Shown here piece after piece: positions 5,046 through 26,060 of a stretch of 30,856 bases of DNA; the stretch's first letter is position 1, and each line of letters begins with the position of its first letter. The translations under genes and the position numbers were made by a program. Under the pieces are notes generated by a model, which was not told the origin of the DNA, ran no database searches, and was given only the letters and a program-made list of their open reading frames with translations. The stretch is taken from positions 1 through 30,856 of the IMG/VR virus record IMGVR_UViG_3300032299_000970; one strand, written 5' to 3'. Source of the stretch: a virus.

Positions 5046-6959
5046 CTAAAGAACACCCTGTTGTTTTTGATAATCTTTCATTTTGTATAGGACCATATCC
5101 ATCAATTGTTTTTGAAATTGTGGACTTGAAAATATTTTACTCATGTCTGCATTTTTATCACCATCAACTCTTCCTCCAACATTTATATCTATTTTTAAAT
5201 TTCCATCAATATTTTGTGAAGTCGCACCTTTACTCTTCGCGGAAATTAAATCTTGTATTGTAGATACTTTGTTAAAAGCCTCTGATAAATTTGTTCCCAT
5301 AGCAACTTCATCTCCAACAATGCCTTGATAAATTTTTCCTTCTGATAAAACTTTGGGTCTACCTCCTTCTGGTAAAAATAAATCATTTACCTTTAAAGCA
5401 AAACCATTCTCAAAAAGATTACCTATTGTTTCCATTCCTTTTTGGACTTTATCTATTATCACATTTTGTCTATCTTTGTCCCCTGGGTCTCCATATCCTG
5501 TTTGTTTGGTAAATTCATTCGTAGCTTGAGTTTGAACGCCTGTTATTACACCAGATGCACCTTTACCAATTTCGGCTCCTACTGCTTTACCCATGTCTTT
5601 AACTCCCGCATTATATGTAGCTTGATTATCAGCCATAGATTTCAAAATTTCTTCTCTTTTTTTCGCATCATTACCAGTCAATGAATATAACACGGCGTTT
5701 TTGATTATCTCTACATCTTTTGCATTATTTTCAGTCGTGGTTAATTGTTTAATTGCAATTTGTTTTTCATCTAATGCTGCATTTTTTTGATATTCTTCTA
5801 AAGCTTTATCCGCGTCACCCCTCTTAATCATTGATTCGGTCACCTTACCAAATCCAGGTATATCTATACTCACCTCACCACCTTTACCAACTTGAGCCAA
5901 ACCGGCTAAAAGTTCTCTATTTTCAGGTTTGATTCCATCCAAATTAAATTTATCTTTAATATAATCTAATTTTGCGGCCTCTCTTCCTGTTTTAACTAAA
6001 TCTTCAAACTTAACCCCCGTAATTGAAGCCTGCTCTCTTAATCTGTATAAGTCTTGTGTAGACGCTTTAAACTCACCGGTTTCCGAATTAAATTGGAAGG
6101 CAGCCTGTGTTGATTTTACCAATTCTTTTTGTAATCCTTCCATGTCGTTTTGAGCCATATACATCAACTGAAACGGGTCTGCTAGTTTACCAACTGCACC
6201 ACCAAGCATTTGAAATTTGGCTGCGGCGTTAATAGCACCTTCAGGGTCAAGTACCGTTTCTTGTAATGTTCCAACTATACCTCCAAAAGTTGTTTTTAAC
6301 ATTTGGGCTTGTTTTGTCATTCGTTCTAAACTTTTCACACCATCTTTAAAACCAAATCCACCAACTTTGTCTATGTTTGTAGACATTTCTTTTACAAATT
6401 TTGAAGCATCAAGACCAACTCTTCTTGCTACTACCGCCATTTCATGTATTTTATCTGTTGCCTCTTCTTGTGTACCACCAAAAGAAGTAACTTTTTCCAC
6501 CATTGAAGCGATTTCTTTGTTTGTCAGCCCTGTAGTTTTTGATAACGCAACCATATTTTCCATCGCAGTTTGAGATGGAAATACAACTCTACCCATAGCA
6601 TCTGCCAATCCTTCAGTAACTTCTGTTACGTCCTTAAACGAACCTCCAAAATCTTGTATTCCTTTAGCTGCGCCTAAAAGTCTTTCTTGAAACTGACCTA
6701 TAGTGTCATTTACTCTTTCGGCTGGGTCATTGCTTCTTTTCATCAAATTGAAAACTCCACCCATAGAACGTAAAAGTCCTACAGATGAATTTTCCATAGA
6801 TGTTAGTTTCTCTGTAAGTTTTTCAAATACATTATCTTTACCTTCGAAAGTTAAATAGGTCTCTTTAATGGCTGTGTTTATATCACCTAGTAGACTAATA
6901 AAACCTTTTCCTTTATTTAAGACATCTGAAGCATCGACTTTTTCTCCATCATTGAACAT
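5046..6959 (-). CDS. Putative tail tape measure protein (637 aa)
   Basis: Candidate tape measure, the protein that sets tail length and is threaded inside the tube. The sequence is largely helical, rich in Lys, Glu, Ala and Gly, with few Cys or Trp. It has tape-measure-like stretches such as FGGTQEEATDKIHEMAVVAR and a Gly-rich segment around the middle. There is no clear transmembrane segment and no obvious lytic domain. The strongest support is position: directly downstream of a tail-assembly chaperone with a frameshift extension, an arrangement conserved next to tape measures. At about 0.15 nm per residue, the accepted rule for tape measures, 637 residues predict a tail of about 95 nm, close to T4 (gp29 is about 590 aa). 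The start ATG at 6959 has TATTTATTAAATAAA just upstream. Another inner tail or hub protein is possible. Confidence 0.55.
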   Translation of the reverse strand: MFNDGEKVDASDVLNKGKGFISLLGDINTAIKETYLTFEGKDNVFEKLTEKLTSMENSSVGLLRSMGGVFNLMKRSNDPAERVNDTIGQFQERLLGAAKGIQDFGGSFKDVTEVTEGLADAMGRVVFPSQTAMENMVALSKTTGLTNKEIASMVEKVTSFGGTQEEATDKIHEMAVVARRVGLDASKFVKEMSTNIDKVGGFGFKDGVKSLERMTKQAQMLKTTFGGIVGTLQETVLDPEGAINAAAKFQMLGGAVGKLADPFQLMYMAQNDMEGLQKELVKSTQAAFQFNSETGEFKASTQDLYRLREQASITGVKFEDLVKTGREAAKLDYIKDKFNLDGIKPENRELLAGLAQVGKGGEVSIDIPGFGKVTESMIKRGDADKALEEYQKNAALDEKQIAIKQLTTTENNAKDVEIIKNAVLYSLTGNDAKKREEILKSMADNQATYNAGVKDMGKAVGAEIGKGASGVITGVQTQATNEFTKQTGYGDPGDKDRQNVIIDKVQKGMETIGNLFENGFALKVNDLFLPEGGRPKVLSEGKIYQGIVGDEVAMGTNLSEAFNKVSTIQDLISAKSKGATSQNIDGNLKIDINVGGRVDGDKNADMSKIFSSPQFQKQLMDMVLYKMKDYQKQQGVL

Positions 6960-13119: not shown

Positions 13120-14355
13120 TTAAACCAAATACGCAACCGTTTTTATTACAGAAGTTTGCGTAATAAGTTTTTTAAAAGCATTAACAACCAAAGTATCACC
13201 ATCATTTATTTGGATGACTGATAAATTATCACCTACGTAGTTACCATTTATAAAAACCGAAAACGAGTCGTTACAAACCGAACTTGTTGTTGATATGGTT
13301 ACTCCCGTTGGGTTAGAAAAAGATGGTATTGTTCCTCCTTGAACACAATATGTCGATGATGTCCCTGATGTAATACCTGAAATCGATATTGGAATACCAT
13401 TACAACCCGTAAAGTTTAAATTGTTTGATGTATTAGATGTAAATGAAAAATTGTAACAACTTACCAAATTTTCAACTCCCGAAACTTTTAAATCAACCGT
13501 ATATCTAAAAACTTCAGACAGGGTGGTAACACCAGGAAGAAAAGTCAAATCCAAATCAAAAAAATCGGGTCTTGGTGGTTGTTGTTGAACTCTTCTTGAT
13601 TTGTTGATAGTGTCCACTTCAAACATCGAAAGTTGTCTAGTAATTGCTGGTGAAACTTCAAACTCATCTTCATCAATCAACAAACCTTTCATGATAAAAG
13701 TATAACTTATAATATAGTATTTTCTTTTTCCTATGTCTTTTGCGGACTCATCAGCAACACTTTCCATTATTAATGGAATATAATGTCCCTTTATTTGTCT
13801 ATAAGCTTGCTTTGATGTAAATTTTTCCATAACAATTTTATTGAACTCGTTAAGTTCTCTCATTCTGTTACAAAATATTTTCACATTATATGTAATGTCA
13901 ACAGGAATTGGTTGTGGTATTTTATAAACGTCAGCACCTTTTCTTTGACCATCCCATGTTGGAACCGAATAGTAAAAAAATTGTCTTCTGTTTGGAATAT
14001 TTGCAGCACCTCCCTGAAATGTTCCATATTTAACTTCAGGAGTTCTTACTGTCGCAATAAATGGTAAGGATATATTTTTGTCTAAATCTTGAAAGTCCCA
14101 TGTTTCAGTAAACTGAGACCAGTTTTGATTTGTAATTATTCTATCTACGGTTGGTACGACCTTTTCTTCCATTACAAGTTTCAGGTCTTCTTTTACAAAA
14201 TCCAACATACCTCTATCTAAATCTGCATGTAAAACGCCTTTAGGTAAATAAGTACCATAGTCAGTAATATCATCAAGCATTTCTTGACGCCTTTCTCGAC
14301 CTACCTTTTCAGGTATTAATGGTAATGAATTTTTAACTTTTTTTGGTAATGCCAT
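13120..14355 (-). CDS. Putative tail terminator / neck protein with added C-terminal module
   Basis: A 411-aa protein. The N-terminal 260 residues look like a T4-like tail completion protein: PEKVGRERRQEMLDDITDYG at about 15-34, then VDITYNVKIFCNRMRELNEF at about 152-171 and KRKYYIISYTFIMKGLLIDE at about 211-230. That strand pattern (Y-x-V-x-I then a long helix then Y-x-x-x-Y-x-x-x) resembles gp15/gp3-type terminators (moderate certainty). The last 130 residues are different: beta-rich, with Cys, and include a module also found in the genes at 1-5006 and 23370-26060, here LNFTGCNGIPISISGITSG followed by GTIPSFSNP. The gene lies 2 bases after its upstream partner, so the two are co-transcribed. 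Its stop abuts the stop of the small rightward gene. Confidence 0.5.
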   Translation of the reverse strand: MALPKKVKNSLPLIPEKVGRERRQEMLDDITDYGTYLPKGVLHADLDRGMLDFVKEDLKLVMEEKVVPTVDRIITNQNWSQFTETWDFQDLDKNISLPFIATVRTPEVKYGTFQGGAANIPNRRQFFYYSVPTWDGQRKGADVYKIPQPIPVDITYNVKIFCNRMRELNEFNKIVMEKFTSKQAYRQIKGHYIPLIMESVADESAKDIGKRKYYIISYTFIMKGLLIDEDEFEVSPAITRQLSMFEVDTINKSRRVQQQPPRPDFFDLDLTFLPGVTTLSEVFRYTVDLKVSGVENLVSCYNFSFTSNTSNNLNFTGCNGIPISISGITSGTSSTYCVQGGTIPSFSNPTGVTISTTSSVCNDSFSVFINGNYVGDNLSVIQINDGDTLVVNAFKKLITQTSVIKTVAYLV

Positions 14356-14928: not shown

Positions 14929-17823
14929 ATGGAAGATTTTGTGCCCAAAACACCCGAATCAAAAGCCCTTTTAATATTAGACAATTATGAAGGGTCAAAT
15001 AACTATATCCTTAATTTAAAACACAAAAAAGAAAATAGTAAGTCTTTCGTACCCACAAGACCTCAGGCGGATTATATCAATAATTATAACACAACACAAC
15101 CAAAAGTTGCAAAAAAATGGGTCAAGTTAGATTCATATTTTGGTAAAAAACTTATGGAAGATAAAATGTATACCAAAGAACCTTCTGAAATATATGTTGA
15201 AAAGTTGTTAGTTGAAAAGGATAAGGCGTATCATATTTGGGGTAAAATATTTTCGGGAGAAACTTTACACGACTTTTGGATGCCAAAATCAGCATTACTA
15301 AAAGATAATGAAGTTAAAAATATTTCAATTGATTATAGTAAGTATGACGTTAGACCACCAATGGAACATCAAAAGGTAGCTATTGAAAAATTGGTTGGTA
15401 ATAAAAAGTTTATTTTGGCGGATGATATGGGTTTGGGTAAGTTTTTACCGGTCAATACGCCTGTTTATACACCTAAAGGTACTAAAAAAATTGGTGATAT
15501 AAAAATTGGTGATAAGGTTATTGGTAGTGATGGTAAATCCCATAATGTAATAGGTGTATTTCCACAAGGGTTTAAGGAAACATATAAAATTACATTTAAT
15601 GACGGGTTTTCAATTTTATCAGGAGATGAACATTTATGGTCTGTTTCATCCCCTAATTACGGTAAAAATAGAAAAAACGAAAGATTAAAAAAATCTTTAG
15701 TTTTATCAACAAAACAAATGTATGAGGGAGGTAAAATTAAAGTTAAAGGCATTAACCATAATAAAAATAAGGAATATGAAATTGAAACTTATTATAAATC
15801 ACCAAACGGAAATAATAAATGGCAAATCCCAATAGTGAAACCAATACAATTTGAACGAAATGATAATCTTATGATTGACCCTTATTTGTTAGGACTTACA
15901 TTAGGTGATGGTGGTATAACACAAAAAAATATTAATTTTACAACAAAAGACGATGAAATTGTGGGTTATATTGAAACCGCATTACCAAAAAATTCACAAA
16001 TAGTTAAACAAAAAAATTCAAGATACAGTTATAGAATAACTAAAATCGATGGTTACACAAATGAAGTTATACAAATTTTAAAAAATTTAAACTTGATGGG
16101 ATGTGGGTCAGACACTAAATTTATTCCCGACATATACAAGTTTTCATCAGTTGAAAATAGATTATCAATTTTACAAGGGTTAATGGATACTGACGGGCAT
16201 TGTATGTATAATGGTAATAGTTTTATTGGGACTGATTATTGTACAACATCAAAACAACTTTGTAATGATGTTGTTGAAGTAGTACAAACATTAGGAGGAG
16301 TTGCAAGAGTCAAAACTTGTATCCCAACATATACTTATAAGGGTGAAAAAAAGAAAGGTAAGTTAGCTTATAGAGTTAATATTAAATTACCAAAGGGTAT
16401 GAATCCGTTCAGATTAAAACGAAAGGCTAACAAATACATTGAACCAAAAAAATACCCCACCGGAAGATATATTAAAAATATTGAAAAAGTTGGTTTTGAA
16501 GAAAGTGTTTGTATATCGGTTGATGCTCCTGATAAACTATATGTTACAGAACATTGTATTGTAACACATAACACCACTTCTACAATTATCGCTTCTTTAG
16601 AAACAGGTGCAAAAAAAATATTAATAATTTGTCCCGCATCTTTAAAAATAAATTGGCAAAGAGAGATTGCAAATTATTCAGATAGGTCTGTTTATATCGC
16701 AGAAGGTAAGAAATTTTCAGATAAACATGATTTTGTTATTGTGAACTACGACATTCTAAAAAATTTCCATGACGCCAAAGAAAAGGATAAGTCAGAAATT
16801 ATGAAAATTAATTTTGATTTAGTAATCATGGATGAAGCACATATGATTTCTAATCCACAGGCTCAAAGAACAAAAATTGCAAACGACATTGCAAGTAAAT
16901 CAAATAGAGTTTGGTTATTATCAGGAACACCAATGACCTCTCGACCTATGAATTATTATAATTTATTAAACCTTGTTGATAGTCCTGTGGCAATGAATTG
17001 GATGGCTTATGCTAAAAGGTATTGTAATGGATTCCAATTTAGTGTTGGAAAAAGAAAGGTATGGAACGTTACAGGAGCATCTAATCTCGATGAATTAAGA
17101 GAAAGAACCTCAACACACATTCTAAGAAGATTAAAAGAAGAGGTTTTAGATTTACCTGAAAAAATTATAACCCCTGTTTATTTGAGATTAAAATCAAAAG
17201 ACTACGAAGAATTAATGGGTGAATATTTTGATTGGTATGACAAAAATCCTGAAGAGTCATCGTCACTTACAATTCAGTTTGGTAAACTAATGAAAGTAAG
17301 AAAAGTAATCGCACAAGAAAAAATTAATAACACAATCGAGTTAGCAGAGAACATTATAGAACAAGGTAAAAAGATTATTATATTTACAAACTTTACCGAC
17401 ACATTAAATCAAATCTATAACCACTTTGGTAAAACTGCGGTTTATTTAGATGGTAGTTGTTCTAAGTTTCACAGACAAAATGCGGTTGATGAATTTCAAA
17501 CAAACGATAAAATCAAAGTATTTGTTGGAAACTTGAAGGCTGCTGGTGTTGGTATTACTTTAACATCTGCTGAGGCTGTTATTATGAATGATTTATCTTT
17601 TGTTCCTGCTGAACATTCACAAGCAGAAGACAGGTCACACCGCATCGGTCAAAAAAATTCAACATCAGTTTATTACCCTCTTTTTGAAAACACAATTGAA
17701 GGTGCAATTTACGACATATTAAATAGAAAGAAAAAAATCATATCAACCGTTATGGGTGATAGTATGATGGATGACGCATCCACAATAGAAGAAATGTTAA
17801 ACATGATTTCTGTCAACCGATGA
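14929..17823 (+). CDS. SNF2-family DNA helicase/translocase interrupted by an intein
   Basis: A 964-aa precursor; without the intein the mature protein would be 587 aa. The SNF2 (superfamily 2) motifs are complete: motif I ADDMGLGK at 164-171 continuing as TT after the intein; Ia ILIICPASL; II MDEAH at about 633-637; III WLLSGTPM; IV KIIIFTNFTDTL; V GNLKAAGVGITLTSAEAV; VI AEDRSHRIGQ at about 899-908. The residues before motif I (1-150) are not recognised. Such ATPases move on duplex DNA. In T4-like phages helicases of this broad class (UvsW) remodel forks and recombination intermediates, and this one probably fills a similar role, although its motif VI is SNF2/HARP-like rather than UvsW-like. 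It lies between divergent neck genes and the superoxide dismutase gene. Splicing is needed to rejoin the ATP-binding loop. Confidence 0.85.
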   Translation: MEDFVPKTPESKALLILDNYEGSNNYILNLKHKKENSKSFVPTRPQADYINNYNTTQPKVAKKWVKLDSYFGKKLMEDKMYTKEPSEIYVEKLLVEKDKAYHIWGKIFSGETLHDFWMPKSALLKDNEVKNISIDYSKYDVRPPMEHQKVAIEKLVGNKKFILADDMGLGKFLPVNTPVYTPKGTKKIGDIKIGDKVIGSDGKSHNVIGVFPQGFKETYKITFNDGFSILSGDEHLWSVSSPNYGKNRKNERLKKSLVLSTKQMYEGGKIKVKGINHNKNKEYEIETYYKSPNGNNKWQIPIVKPIQFERNDNLMIDPYLLGLTLGDGGITQKNINFTTKDDEIVGYIETALPKNSQIVKQKNSRYSYRITKIDGYTNEVIQILKNLNLMGCGSDTKFIPDIYKFSSVENRLSILQGLMDTDGHCMYNGNSFIGTDYCTTSKQLCNDVVEVVQTLGGVARVKTCIPTYTYKGEKKKGKLAYRVNIKLPKGMNPFRLKRKANKYIEPKKYPTGRYIKNIEKVGFEESVCISVDAPDKLYVTEHCIVTHNTTSTIIASLETGAKKILIICPASLKINWQREIANYSDRSVYIAEGKKFSDKHDFVIVNYDILKNFHDAKEKDKSEIMKINFDLVIMDEAHMISNPQAQRTKIANDIASKSNRVWLLSGTPMTSRPMNYYNLLNLVDSPVAMNWMAYAKRYCNGFQFSVGKRKVWNVTGASNLDELRERTSTHILRRLKEEVLDLPEKIITPVYLRLKSKDYEELMGEYFDWYDKNPEESSSLTIQFGKLMKVRKVIAQEKINNTIELAENIIEQGKKIIIFTNFTDTLNQIYNHFGKTAVYLDGSCSKFHRQNAVDEFQTNDKIKVFVGNLKAAGVGITLTSAEAVIMNDLSFVPAEHSQAEDRSHRIGQKNSTSVYYPLFENTIEGAIYDILNRKKKIISTVMGDSMMDDASTIEEMLNMISVNR
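15442..16572 (+). other. Class 3-like intein with LAGLIDADG endonuclease, inserted in Walker A
   Basis: Residues 172-548 (377 aa) of the helicase precursor, between Lys171 and Thr549 of the GK-T motif. Block A is FLPVNTPVYTPKG: position 1 is Phe (TTT), not Cys, Ser or Ala. Block B is SGDEHLWSV, with Trp237. A two-motif LAGLIDADG nuclease follows, LLGLTLGDGG at 320-329 and LQGLMDTDG at 415-423, each keeping its acidic residue. Block F is VCISVDAPDKLYVT, with Cys528, and block G is CIVTHN, with Thr546, His547 and Asn548, followed by extein Thr. Trp, Cys and Thr in blocks B, F and G form the triad that defines class 3 inteins, which start splicing at the block F Cys and do not need a residue 1 nucleophile. 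It is therefore probably active in splicing and possibly mobile. Confidence 0.85.
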
Positions 17824-17830: not shown

Positions 17831-17850
17831 ATATCAACAAGTTGCACTTT

Positions 17851-18564
17851 ATGAAAAAATCAATATATGACATATTTTCAAGAAAAATAGATATTATAGA
17901 ATCTCATCTGAAAGTAGAGTCCAGTAAAAAACAAAAAATTATTTCTGAAATAAAAAAAATTAGTGTAGATAAACTACCATATAGTTATGATTCATTGGGC
18001 GGGTTTATTGATGATGTCACTATGAAAACACACTACAACAAACACTACAAAGGTTATGTTGAAAAGTTGAATGTTGAGTTAGAAAAAATTAAAGGAAAAG
18101 ATTTAGAACTCGAGGAAATAATTTTAAAAATTTCAAAGTTTAATACAACAGTAAAAAATAATGGTGGAGGGGCTTTCAATCACGCACTTTTTTGGAAAAT
18201 GTTATCCCCAAAAAAAACAACATTAAAAAACCCACTAAAAGGTAAAATCGAAAGTTCATTTGGTACATTCGAAAAGTTCAAAGAAAAATTCGAAGAAGAA
18301 GCAAAAACAAGATTTGGTTCGGGTTGGGTTTGGTTAATTCTAACAAAACAGAACAAATTAAAAATTGTCACAACGGCAAATCAAGATAATCCTTTAATGA
18401 ATACAGAAAAAGAAAATGGTTACCCCATTCTTGGGTTAGATTTGTGGGAACACGCTTATTATCTTAAATACAAAAATAAAAGAGACGAATATATTTCTAA
18501 TTTTTGGAAAGTTGTTAATTGGGATTTTTGTAATGAACTTTTCGAATCCCAAACAAAAAAGTAA
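17851..18564 (+). CDS. Manganese-type superoxide dismutase
   Basis: An Fe/Mn superoxide dismutase, which converts superoxide to oxygen and hydrogen peroxide. Numbered from ATG 17851 (237 aa), all four metal ligands are present: His61 (KTHYNKHYKGYV), His111 (AFNHALFW), Asp197 and His201 (LDLWEHAYYLKYKN). Gly107 stands where iron enzymes have Gln, and Gln178 (TANQDNPLM) is the Mn-type active-site Gln, so manganese or cambialistic use is expected. LPYSYDSLGGFID at 42-54 is the usual N-terminal start, preceded here by about 40 extra, mostly helical charged residues. There is no signal peptide, so it should act in the cytoplasm or as a packaged protein. A TTG three codons upstream (17842) is a possible but weaker start. 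It lies between the helicase and a neck gene, so it is not part of a host-like operon. Confidence 0.9.
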   Translation: MKKSIYDIFSRKIDIIESHLKVESSKKQKIISEIKKISVDKLPYSYDSLGGFIDDVTMKTHYNKHYKGYVEKLNVELEKIKGKDLELEEIILKISKFNTTVKNNGGGAFNHALFWKMLSPKKTTLKNPLKGKIESSFGTFEKFKEKFEEEAKTRFGSGWVWLILTKQNKLKIVTTANQDNPLMNTEKENGYPILGLDLWEHAYYLKYKNKRDEYISNFWKVVNWDFCNELFESQTKK

Positions 18565-23369: not shown

Positions 23370-26060
23370 TTAACAACTAGTAATTATTTGTACAACTACG
23401 CCATTTTGAACGTTCAATATTACATAGTTTGAAGACACTATTGCGATATAATAACCGGTAAAGACATAATAATTACAAGTTGTTGTATTGCCATAGAAAA
23501 CAGTACCGACTTGTATTTGTGATGTGTCCATATACATTAATCCAATACCACCATTCAATGTACATGCCGAAGTTTGTAAACATGAAAGAGTTGAACACGC
23601 TGAAGAATAATTTGCGGTAAAATTTCCGTATAATGTTGAACTCAGATACAATGTTGGTGAAACAAAATTATGTGTTGCCGAACATGGTATTGGTGTTGGG
23701 TATGGAGGGCATTCCAAACATGAACCTTGACCGTAGACTAATCCATTCCATGTAACTGTCGATGGCCCTGTAGTTGGCCCTGTTATTAAGTAACATTCAC
23801 CATTCGTACCACCAAGAACATAATAGTTGTCTAAATTTTGGTATTGAGATGGTACTGACATTACCTCAGCATTAAATTCACCCGAACACGGTATTGCTTG
23901 TGCAAAAATGTATGAAGGTGTCGGTGAAGGTGTAGGTGTTGGAGTAGGTGTTGGAGTAGGAGTCGAAGTCGGAGTAGGCGTCGGAGTTGGTACGATGTCA
24001 GGAGCCAAACAATTAGGACACCAGTAATTAAATAAGTTAAATTTTTCTTTTAAAATTCTAAAATTATGTTGAACCATTGGGCTGCTCATAGGTTCAGTGT
24101 ACATTCTAAACTGAGAAAGACCCCCCATAAATGTTCCCCCAAAAGTTTGTTCCATCAAAATCTCTGTTGTGAGCCCACTATAGGTTGTTGCCGATAAAAT
24201 TTCATCAGGAAATAATTCTGGGTCTTGTCGGTATGGTCCTTCAGTTGGAATATAGTTACTCGCGTAGGTTAAAGTACTTGCGGTTGAGGCGGTAGTAAAA
24301 TAAGGTATAGTGTTAAATTTAGTATTTATTGTTCCCGACTGACCAGTTATTCCACTTAAAGTAATCACAGTACCACTACAGGCGGTATAAACTAAATTTG
24401 TATTTATATTTCCAACCGACCAATTCCAAGTTGAGCATTCATCAAAAATTAAACTATCATGAAGTCCCTGAGTTCCACCGCCCCATGAAATATTAAAAGG
24501 TACTCCAAGTTGTTTTTCTTTTTCTGTGTTTAGTTCTCGAGGGATTATTTCTTCAAAATTTTCTATTACCATAAACAAGTAACCATTAACATAAATTTTT
24601 AATCTCCCCATTCTATACCATTCATCATCAAACCATTTTTTATCAAAAACTACTCTGTAAACTTTATTTTCTTTTGTTCCTCCTGAATGGGTTTCAGGTG
24701 GCATTATTAAATTGTATGAAGTTCCATTAAGGATAGACTGATACGTAACTTGCCTTATATCCCCTAAACCACCTAAGTTCAACAAATCACAATCTTCTAT
24801 TGTTGTATACCTTTCAAATACGGCAGTTACCATAACCCATCTATCGGTTAGAATATTTTGACAAACGTAGTCACATATGTCATATATTGGTGGGCTACAA
24901 ACTTCAGTAATAGTATAACCCGATTGGAAAGTAATACCTGTTGTTGAACAAGTACCGGTGGTTACACAGTCTCCTGTAATTCTTAAAACTTTTACACAAA
25001 TACGAGGGTCCGCAGGACAACCGCTAAACCTAATAGATAGGGCATTTGAAAGTGTATCTAATTTAGGGTCTAATGGAGGTACAGGAATTTGTTCAGTACA
25101 CGCACCACAACCACAACCAATATTATGGTGGGCGGTTGTTGCACTTTGTGGGTATAACAACACACAATTAGCATTAGTAAATGCTGTTTGAGCACATGTA
25201 CAACTATTAAGACTTGTTAATCCAGAGGTTACTCTTGTGTACCCACTGTCAGATGCAGGTGAACCAGCAGCAAAATGATAATATTTATTCTCTGCTCTTG
25301 TACCAAAAAAGAAAAAAGTACCAGCGTTATACGGATATCTCGTGTTAAGATATTCTTCCGTGTTAGTATCTATAGAAAATTCATCAATAATTCTAGGTTT
25401 TATTACGGTTTCCATAGACCACCCTTTGTTTAGTCTTTCTGGAAAAACTTCATAATCGTATCCAAATAATTTGTAGAACCCTTGATAAAAACCACCATAA
25501 AGTTCTTGATAATAGTTTACGGTTGGACCTGTTTTAGATACGATATTATAAATAACATTTTTTGGTCGTCCTGAAAATACAGTATTTGGCGGTAAGGTGT
25601 ATCCTGTAACCATGTGCATTTTCATTCTTCTGTCATAATAGTGAGGATGAAATTTATAATCATCTCTAACTCCCATGGTATAATATAAAGTTTGACCAGT
25701 CATACCTGTATATAGCCCATTATCTGTGGCAGTTAAACCGATATCACAACTACCTGTGAACGCAGATATACAAGTTAAATCTACACTATTTGGGTTATAA
25801 TAATTTTTTGACACTAAAGTTGCTCCCGTGTAAAAATTATCAAAACTCATTATTAACTGTGGTGTTGTTAACGTATTGTCCAAATCATAAAAAATTGGTA
25901 ATCTATTTCCATCATCTTTGGCAATAACATAAGGAGAAAAAACTACTTCTTCATCATAGTCCCTTTCATCGGCAGCCAAAGTTAAATCAAAATATCTACT
26001 TGAATTTAACAAAGACTTATATCTTGGGTAATAATAGGTATTTAAATTTTGAGTTGGCAT
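23370..26060 (-). CDS. Large virion protein with lectin-like domain and Pro-Thr linker (possible tail fibre or head decoration)
   Basis: An 896-aa protein. Residues 1-300 are Tyr/Phe-rich (LNTYYYPRYKSLL) without a recognised family. A Cys-rich insert lies at about 290-320 (CTCAQ, then GCGCGAC) and could bind metal or form disulphides. Residues about 410-560 look like a concanavalin A/LamG-type fold: DRWVMVTAVFERY, LKIYVNGYLFMVIENF, then FNISWGGGTQGL. Residues about 550-600 carry the shared module (LVYTACSGTVITLSGITG, then TIPYFTTAS). A Pro-Thr-Ser linker spans about 690-716. The last 180 residues have repeated Cys and Tyr-rich beta segments such as NGECYLITGPT and TTTCNYYVFTGYY. It is probably a surface-exposed carbohydrate-binding virion protein; the exact location is unknown. 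Confidence 0.6.
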   Translation of the reverse strand: MPTQNLNTYYYPRYKSLLNSSRYFDLTLAADERDYDEEVVFSPYVIAKDDGNRLPIFYDLDNTLTTPQLIMSFDNFYTGATLVSKNYYNPNSVDLTCISAFTGSCDIGLTATDNGLYTGMTGQTLYYTMGVRDDYKFHPHYYDRRMKMHMVTGYTLPPNTVFSGRPKNVIYNIVSKTGPTVNYYQELYGGFYQGFYKLFGYDYEVFPERLNKGWSMETVIKPRIIDEFSIDTNTEEYLNTRYPYNAGTFFFFGTRAENKYYHFAAGSPASDSGYTRVTSGLTSLNSCTCAQTAFTNANCVLLYPQSATTAHHNIGCGCGACTEQIPVPPLDPKLDTLSNALSIRFSGCPADPRICVKVLRITGDCVTTGTCSTTGITFQSGYTITEVCSPPIYDICDYVCQNILTDRWVMVTAVFERYTTIEDCDLLNLGGLGDIRQVTYQSILNGTSYNLIMPPETHSGGTKENKVYRVVFDKKWFDDEWYRMGRLKIYVNGYLFMVIENFEEIIPRELNTEKEKQLGVPFNISWGGGTQGLHDSLIFDECSTWNWSVGNINTNLVYTACSGTVITLSGITGQSGTINTKFNTIPYFTTASTASTLTYASNYIPTEGPYRQDPELFPDEILSATTYSGLTTEILMEQTFGGTFMGGLSQFRMYTEPMSSPMVQHNFRILKEKFNLFNYWCPNCLAPDIVPTPTPTPTSTPTPTPTPTPTPSPTPSYIFAQAIPCSGEFNAEVMSVPSQYQNLDNYYVLGGTNGECYLITGPTTGPSTVTWNGLVYGQGSCLECPPYPTPIPCSATHNFVSPTLYLSSTLYGNFTANYSSACSTLSCLQTSACTLNGGIGLMYMDTSQIQVGTVFYGNTTTCNYYVFTGYYIAIVSSNYVILNVQNGVVVQIITSC
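23914..23992 (-). repeat. Pro-Thr linker tract (low-complexity DNA)
   Basis: The plus strand is GGTGTTGGAGTAGG-like and encodes about 26 residues of alternating Pro and Thr/Ser in the leftward 896-aa gene. It resembles the tract at 1265-1420 in codon pattern as well as protein, so the two genes may have exchanged or copied this segment. Confidence 0.75.

Follow-up and report, generated by a model that had tools for sequence, protein, structure and literature searches.

A Phage SNF2-Family Helicase Interrupted in Its Walker A Loop by a Putatively Mobile Class 3 Intein with Phenylalanine at Position 1

The stretch of DNA that we analyzed in its full length (positions 1-30856, hereafter called the window) is a fragment of a contractile-tail phage, with genes for a tail sheath, a baseplate hub and a head-tail adaptor, as well as a family B DNA polymerase, a glycosyltransferase and an ORF of more than 1668 aa that runs off the left end; three of its large ORFs (5046-6959, 13120-14355 and 23370-26060) have no family match. 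An ORF of 964 aa (14929-17823), lying on the plus strand like all the window features described below, encodes a SNF2-family helicase with an intein: The flanking parts match the Pfam families SNF2-rel_dom (1e-28) and Helicase_C (3e-17), and LAGLIDADG_3 matches within the insert. Directly behind this ORF is a gene for a Fe/Mn superoxide dismutase (17842-18564; Pfam Sod_Fe_C 5e-41, Sod_Fe_N 2e-21). The intein comprises 377 aa (15442-16572, residues 172-548 of the precursor), begins with Phe, ends with Thr-His-Asn and is located between K171 and T549, in the Walker A motif DDMGLGK/T (the slash marks the point of insertion). The N-extein (14929-15441, 171 aa) terminates in the first part of this motif, DDMGLGK, and the C-extein (16573-17823) has 416 aa plus the stop codon, the two adding up to a SNF2-type helicase of 587 aa.

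Position 1 of the intein is F172 (TTT, 15442-15444). Block B carries HLW (15631-15639), namely His B:10, Leu and Trp B:12, the last corresponding to W237 (TGG), while position 4 of block F is occupied by C528 (TGT, 16510-16512), the predicted first nucleophile. Block G closes the element with T546 (ACA), H547 and N548 (16564-16572), and is followed by T549 (ACC, 16573-16575), which is at once the +1 residue and the Thr of Walker A. In the numbering of the intein, which we use from here on, these residues become Phe1, Trp66 (B:12), Cys357 (F:4), Thr375 (G:5), His376 and Asn377, then Thr+1. The coordinates and residues of the preliminary description, from the ORF and the span of the intein to F172, W237, C528, T546, H547, N548 and T549, were all reproduced.

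Searching viral contigs with the C-extein returned 80 loci. At 70 of these the N- and C-exteins are joined with zero residues between them (ADDMGLGK/TTSTIIA), forming an exact empty site, whereas seven have an intein of 367-377 aa at exactly the same position; the other three are broken or partial. The nearest empty alleles are 95-98% identical to the window in both exteins. Because empty alleles join at the exact site, the boundaries of the intein are set by allele comparison, beyond the reading of motifs. The insert is also far beyond chance, since 70 of the 80 loci encode the same helicase without it, in alleles up to 98% identical. The proposal that it splits the Walker A motif of a phage SNF2 helicase agrees with the Pfam matches, the boundaries at K171 and T549 and the empty alleles alike.

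This anatomy raises a question: To which class does an intein beginning with Phe belong? In class 3 inteins it is Cys F:4 that makes the initial attack, residue 1 having no nucleophilic role (PMC5222942, PMC7664689, PMC4031507; for the mechanism also PMC6195587), with Ser or Thr at +1 (PMC5222942). The window intein combines Trp B:12, Cys F:4 and Thr G:5 with the lack of Cys1, the signature of class 3, and its Thr+1 fits the requirement for that position. With the intein as query we obtained 150 viral relatives, 80 of which were fetched; the comparison set consisted of 56 distinct full-length related inteins, from which two degenerate free-standing ORFs had been excluded. His B:10, Cys F:4, Thr G:5, His G:6, Asn G:7 and Thr+1 are invariant in all 56; 50 of them have Trp at B:12 and the other 6 have Phe. 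Conversely, position 1 varies widely (Ala 18, Cys 14, Gly 13, Phe 7, Met 2, Leu 2): On the tree of the relatives, which was built without their first seven residues and contained no class 1 inteins, it undergoes at least 14 parsimony changes, as many as or more than 79% of the columns. A fixed Cys F:4 together with a drifting position 1 is the pattern that the class 3 mechanism predicts, given that Cys F:4 attacks first and residue 1 is no nucleophile. On its residues, the intein is therefore of class 3, as had been proposed from the complete W-C-T triad, His547-Asn548 and the +1 Thr, and the tolerance of Phe at position 1 is borne out by the same drift and by the several alleles that carry it. 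Trp B:12 does not seem to be absolutely required in the family, because six relatives have Phe there; the natural change of Trp to Phe with Cys F:4 and Thr G:5 kept is seen in L043-L045, L047, L048, L052 and L054. Another Cys near the end of the intein, Cys543 of the precursor (EHC), was considered as the class 3 nucleophile and ruled out, since its position varies among C, G, A, F and Y with 12 changes, whereas Cys528 never changes. Class 3 relatives are common also in bacterial genomes, where they mostly have Ala1.

Could Phe1 instead be a misread Cys1 codon of an ordinary class 1 intein, which carries Cys, Ser or Thr at position 1? TGT and TTT are indeed one base apart and close siblings, 72-76% identical, do carry Cys1, yet every window-type allele has Phe1. 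It recurs in separate contigs with inteins 97-100% identical to that of the window (L002-L005), in L007 (78%), in L136/L137 and, on another branch of the tree, in L024-L028 and L070 (62-64%), and its codon is TTC in L003/L089 and TTT in the others. Moreover, TGC is the Cys1 codon of the siblings in the window's clade, so that two changes would be needed to reach TTT. Since the residue recurs in separate contigs and alleles under both codons, we regard Phe1 as real and a sequencing error as excluded by these sequences; the alternative of class 1 with an error at codon 172, which had been set against the original proposal, is refuted by Phe1 alleles that are 62-100% identical, and a misread codon has a negligible probability. 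Two Phe-first rows of the bacterial set (L208 and L212) were left out of the Phe1 count, as their boundaries are apparently misplaced (GSF/ALAQP). A different escape from class 3 chemistry would be direct attack of Thr+1 on the N-terminal junction, without Cys F:4, as in class 2 inteins, which likewise have no nucleophile at position 1. However, the signature of class 2 (KlbA type) is Ala1, Ser G:6, Asp F:4 and Cys+1, and splicing of this kind needs the last two (PMC4031507), whereas the intein has Phe1, His G:6, an invariant Cys F:4 and Thr+1; we consider such a route extremely improbable.

The Cys1 alleles are of interest in their own right. Fourteen distinct inteins, at two places of the tree, have Cys1 together with Cys F:4, and most of them retain full WCT, the exceptions being L052 and L054 with Phe at B:12. 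At the level of individual loci, Cys1 with the block F Cys is found in L006, L008-L017, L051, L052, L054, L059-L061, L063, L064 and L149. Some inteins with Cys1 or Ser1 and WCT are said to have been treated as class 3 already by Tori and Perler in 2011, and Cys1 alleles keeping the full triad are probably known already. The class 3 definition in the largest census, with 1701 sequences, excludes Cys1 (PMC7891396). Within the window's clade, the Cys1 alleles form a single group nested within Phe1 lineages on the free tree, but constraining the Phe1 alleles to one clade is not rejected (AU p = 0.36), and we have consequently set aside any direction of the Phe/Cys change read from the free tree.

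The distribution of near-identical inteins among dissimilar phages points to recent movement. The window intein is identical over 1131/1131 nt to that of L004/L094 and over 1129/1131 nt to that of L002/L114, while beyond about 1 kb the identity of these contigs to the window is 70-75% on the upstream side and 77-79% on the downstream side; directly after the intein, however, both match the window at 100% over 60 nt. The reverse case is provided by the empty loci L145 and L082, which share 96-99% identity with the window at distances beyond 240-480 nt but drop to 70-80% in parts of the 120 nt around the site. In L114 the upstream DNA is of recipient type (as in the empty L083/L085) until about 12 nt before the insertion, from where it becomes donor type, GGTTTGGGTAAG, followed by the intein and the donor downstream flank. 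Such a switch in the flank is co-conversion, the mark of double-strand-break homing, and these comparisons indicate that the element has recently homed between different phages together with co-converted flanks. The LAGLIDADG-like motifs, LLGLTLGDG (15886-15912) and LQGLMDTDG (16171-16197), contain the acidic residues D156 and D251 of the intein, respectively, which are invariant in 46 aligned inteins, as the preliminary description had anticipated in noting that the motifs keep their acids. In view of co-conversion and of these invariant acids, the endonuclease has very likely been active recently. The suggestion that the element may still be mobile gains from the near-identical inteins in backgrounds of 70-79% identity, the co-converted flanks and the empty alleles.

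The reading that we favor, with a probability of about 0.93, is that the phage SNF2 helicase carries in its Walker A loop a class 3 intein that is full-length and mobile. By analogy with known class 3 inteins, we infer the following chemistry. After translation, the block F Cys357, rather than residue 1, would attack the K171-F172 peptide bond to form a branched thioester at block F; the N-extein would then be transferred to Thr+1 and cyclization of Asn377 would release the intein, leaving a 587-aa helicase with an intact DDMGLGKT loop, while Phe1 would have no covalent role. At the DNA level, the LAGLIDADG domain would cleave the empty site and carry the element to alleles of this helicase gene that lack it.

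What, then, of an intein that no longer splices, Phe1 having arisen by mutation in a helicase that is a pseudogene or dispensable? There is a precedent in Arth_1007, a class 3 intein known to be dead, which lacks Cys F:4 and His B:10 (PMC3196547), while the window intein keeps all catalytic residues. In comparisons of the window with its clade relatives, the splicing domain has dN/dS values of 0.03-0.12 at dS 0.3-0.8, a divergence over which Phe1 is retained, so that the domain is under strong purifying selection; the C-extein shows 0.03-0.07 in pairs with the window's intein-bearing allele, not far from the 0.006-0.05 of intein-free pairs. Were the insert in Walker A dead, constraint on both parts should relax, and their low values speak against this. 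The helicase part is conserved as in intein-free alleles, an argument that is weak alone for recipients because transfer is recent, and it is the Phe1 form that has recently spread. We therefore find a splicing-dead element very unlikely; with the complete set of residues for class 3 chemistry and near-identical copies recently moved between phages, the intein is real and almost certainly working. It was further suggested that splicing acts as a switch, since the precursor with its split Walker A is presumably inactive until the intein leaves. Retention of the intein for regulating the helicase, for instance by redox state, beyond its role as a homing element, would find a parallel in the class 3 intein DnaBi1 of M. 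smegmatis, the splicing of which is reversibly stopped by oxidation of the block F Cys (PMC6195587) and which has a redox partner Cys, and the superoxide dismutase gene adjoining the helicase might seem to fit. However, 70 of the 80 alleles of the same phage group have no intein and evidently manage without a switch, and homing suffices to explain the distribution. A dismutase relative is present in 95 of the 160 fetched viral loci, intein present or absent, and thus a link between intein and dismutase is ruled out by its adjoining empty helicases as well. Nothing in these analyses supports the notion of a switch, nor is one needed, and we give it very little chance. Dismutase matches in the phage collection amount to only 27 records, including several small contigs that are unannotated or look bacterial.

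Returning to the class 3 intein, its predicted structure (pLDDT 91, pTM 0.90) consists of a Hint domain and a LAGLIDADG nuclease, and in fold-level scores matches PI-SceI across the whole length. By the same scores the leading mini-inteins are gp41-1 and the DnaB inteins of class 3; alignments to the DnaB inteins span 69-72 columns at 1.1-2.2 A. We know of no solved class 3 intein with Phe1. By sequence, too, the PDB entries that match best are those of gp41-1 and of the mycobacterial DnaB inteins of class 3, and the nearest solved structures thus include a class 1 member, a class that was absent from the tree of relatives. The DnaB inteins (MchDnaB1, 6rix/6riy; MsmDnaB1, 6bs8) resemble the window intein in sequence, mini-intein fold, WCT triad and insertion in a P-loop (PMC6195587), but they are mini-inteins without endonuclease, reside in another host protein and have Ser at +1 (PMC5222942) instead of Thr. 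Although gp41-1 (6qaz, 6riz) shares Thr at G:5, it belongs to class 1, with Cys1, Phe B:12 and Asp F:4, and grafting WCT onto it did not produce a working class 3 intein (PMC7664689). Closer in location is the helicase intein of Brevundimonas phage vB_BpoS-Papperlapapp (ON529860), which has the same GLGK/T site, W, C and THN, but Met1 in place of Phe1 and about 35% identity over the intein. The intein of mycobacteriophage Alice gp175 has the class 3 signature, LAGLIDADG motifs and a GSGK/ Walker A site, but it is only 33% identical and differs in Ala1, Ser+1 and the helicase in which it resides. The class 3 intein that the preliminary description mentions from a Deinococcus Snf2 protein does exist, in D. 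radiodurans, according to papers citing its report (Brace et al. 2010, as cited in PMC5222942, PMC4031507, PMC3196547); known here from these citations alone, it is similar in being a class 3 intein of a SNF2-type helicase. A full-text literature search, weak in that most journals are not covered, found no prior report of this phage intein. In Pseudomonas phage PA1C (MK599315; L164:2416-5570) the annotation divides the SNF2 helicase into two overlapping genes and the change of frame falls inside the endonuclease part of its intein, which may reflect a frameshift, a sequencing error or a split intein.

Phage P-loop helicases are already known to harbor class 3 inteins that vary in their first residue; the window element adds one member to this kind, a limited surprise given that such variation is expected of the class. 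More useful is the series of alleles: one site with dozens of natural alleles, six different first residues, an invariant block F Cys and near-isogenic empty phages. The series shows cleanly, on natural proteins, that class 3 inteins are unconstrained at position 1 and that a Phe1 form is spreading now, and it bears on the origin of class 3, be it by divergence from class 1 (PMC3196547) or otherwise (PMC7664689). A bolder idea, which we advance with low confidence, is that these alleles make up a natural mutational series (Phe, Cys, Ala, Gly, Met or Leu at position 1 with Cys F:4 fixed) in which those with Cys1 and WCT may use the chemistry of class 1 or that of class 3 for splicing, and the transition between the two classes could be tested stepwise.

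The endonuclease has a history of its own. Its segment at 15904-16101 (intein aa ~155-220) is shared only with the inteins of L003/L089 type (95-100%) and with identical copies; same-site siblings are about 10-50% identical to it while being mostly 75-100% identical elsewhere in the intein, and next closest are inteins from other sites (L071, 47%; Hymenobacter L167, 42%). These values indicate that one or the other lineage exchanged its DNA-recognition part. A further derivative is a free-standing ORF of ~375-385 aa, 47% identical to the window intein, which follows an empty SNF2 helicase at a distance of about 200-225 bp (ORF L068:5971-7125, helicase L068:3913-5775), with the same arrangement in L067 and L069. 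It has lost Trp B:12, Cys F:4 and the final Asn (to C, G and D) and kept the endonuclease motifs, and so looks like a former intein turned endonuclease beside its own target gene.
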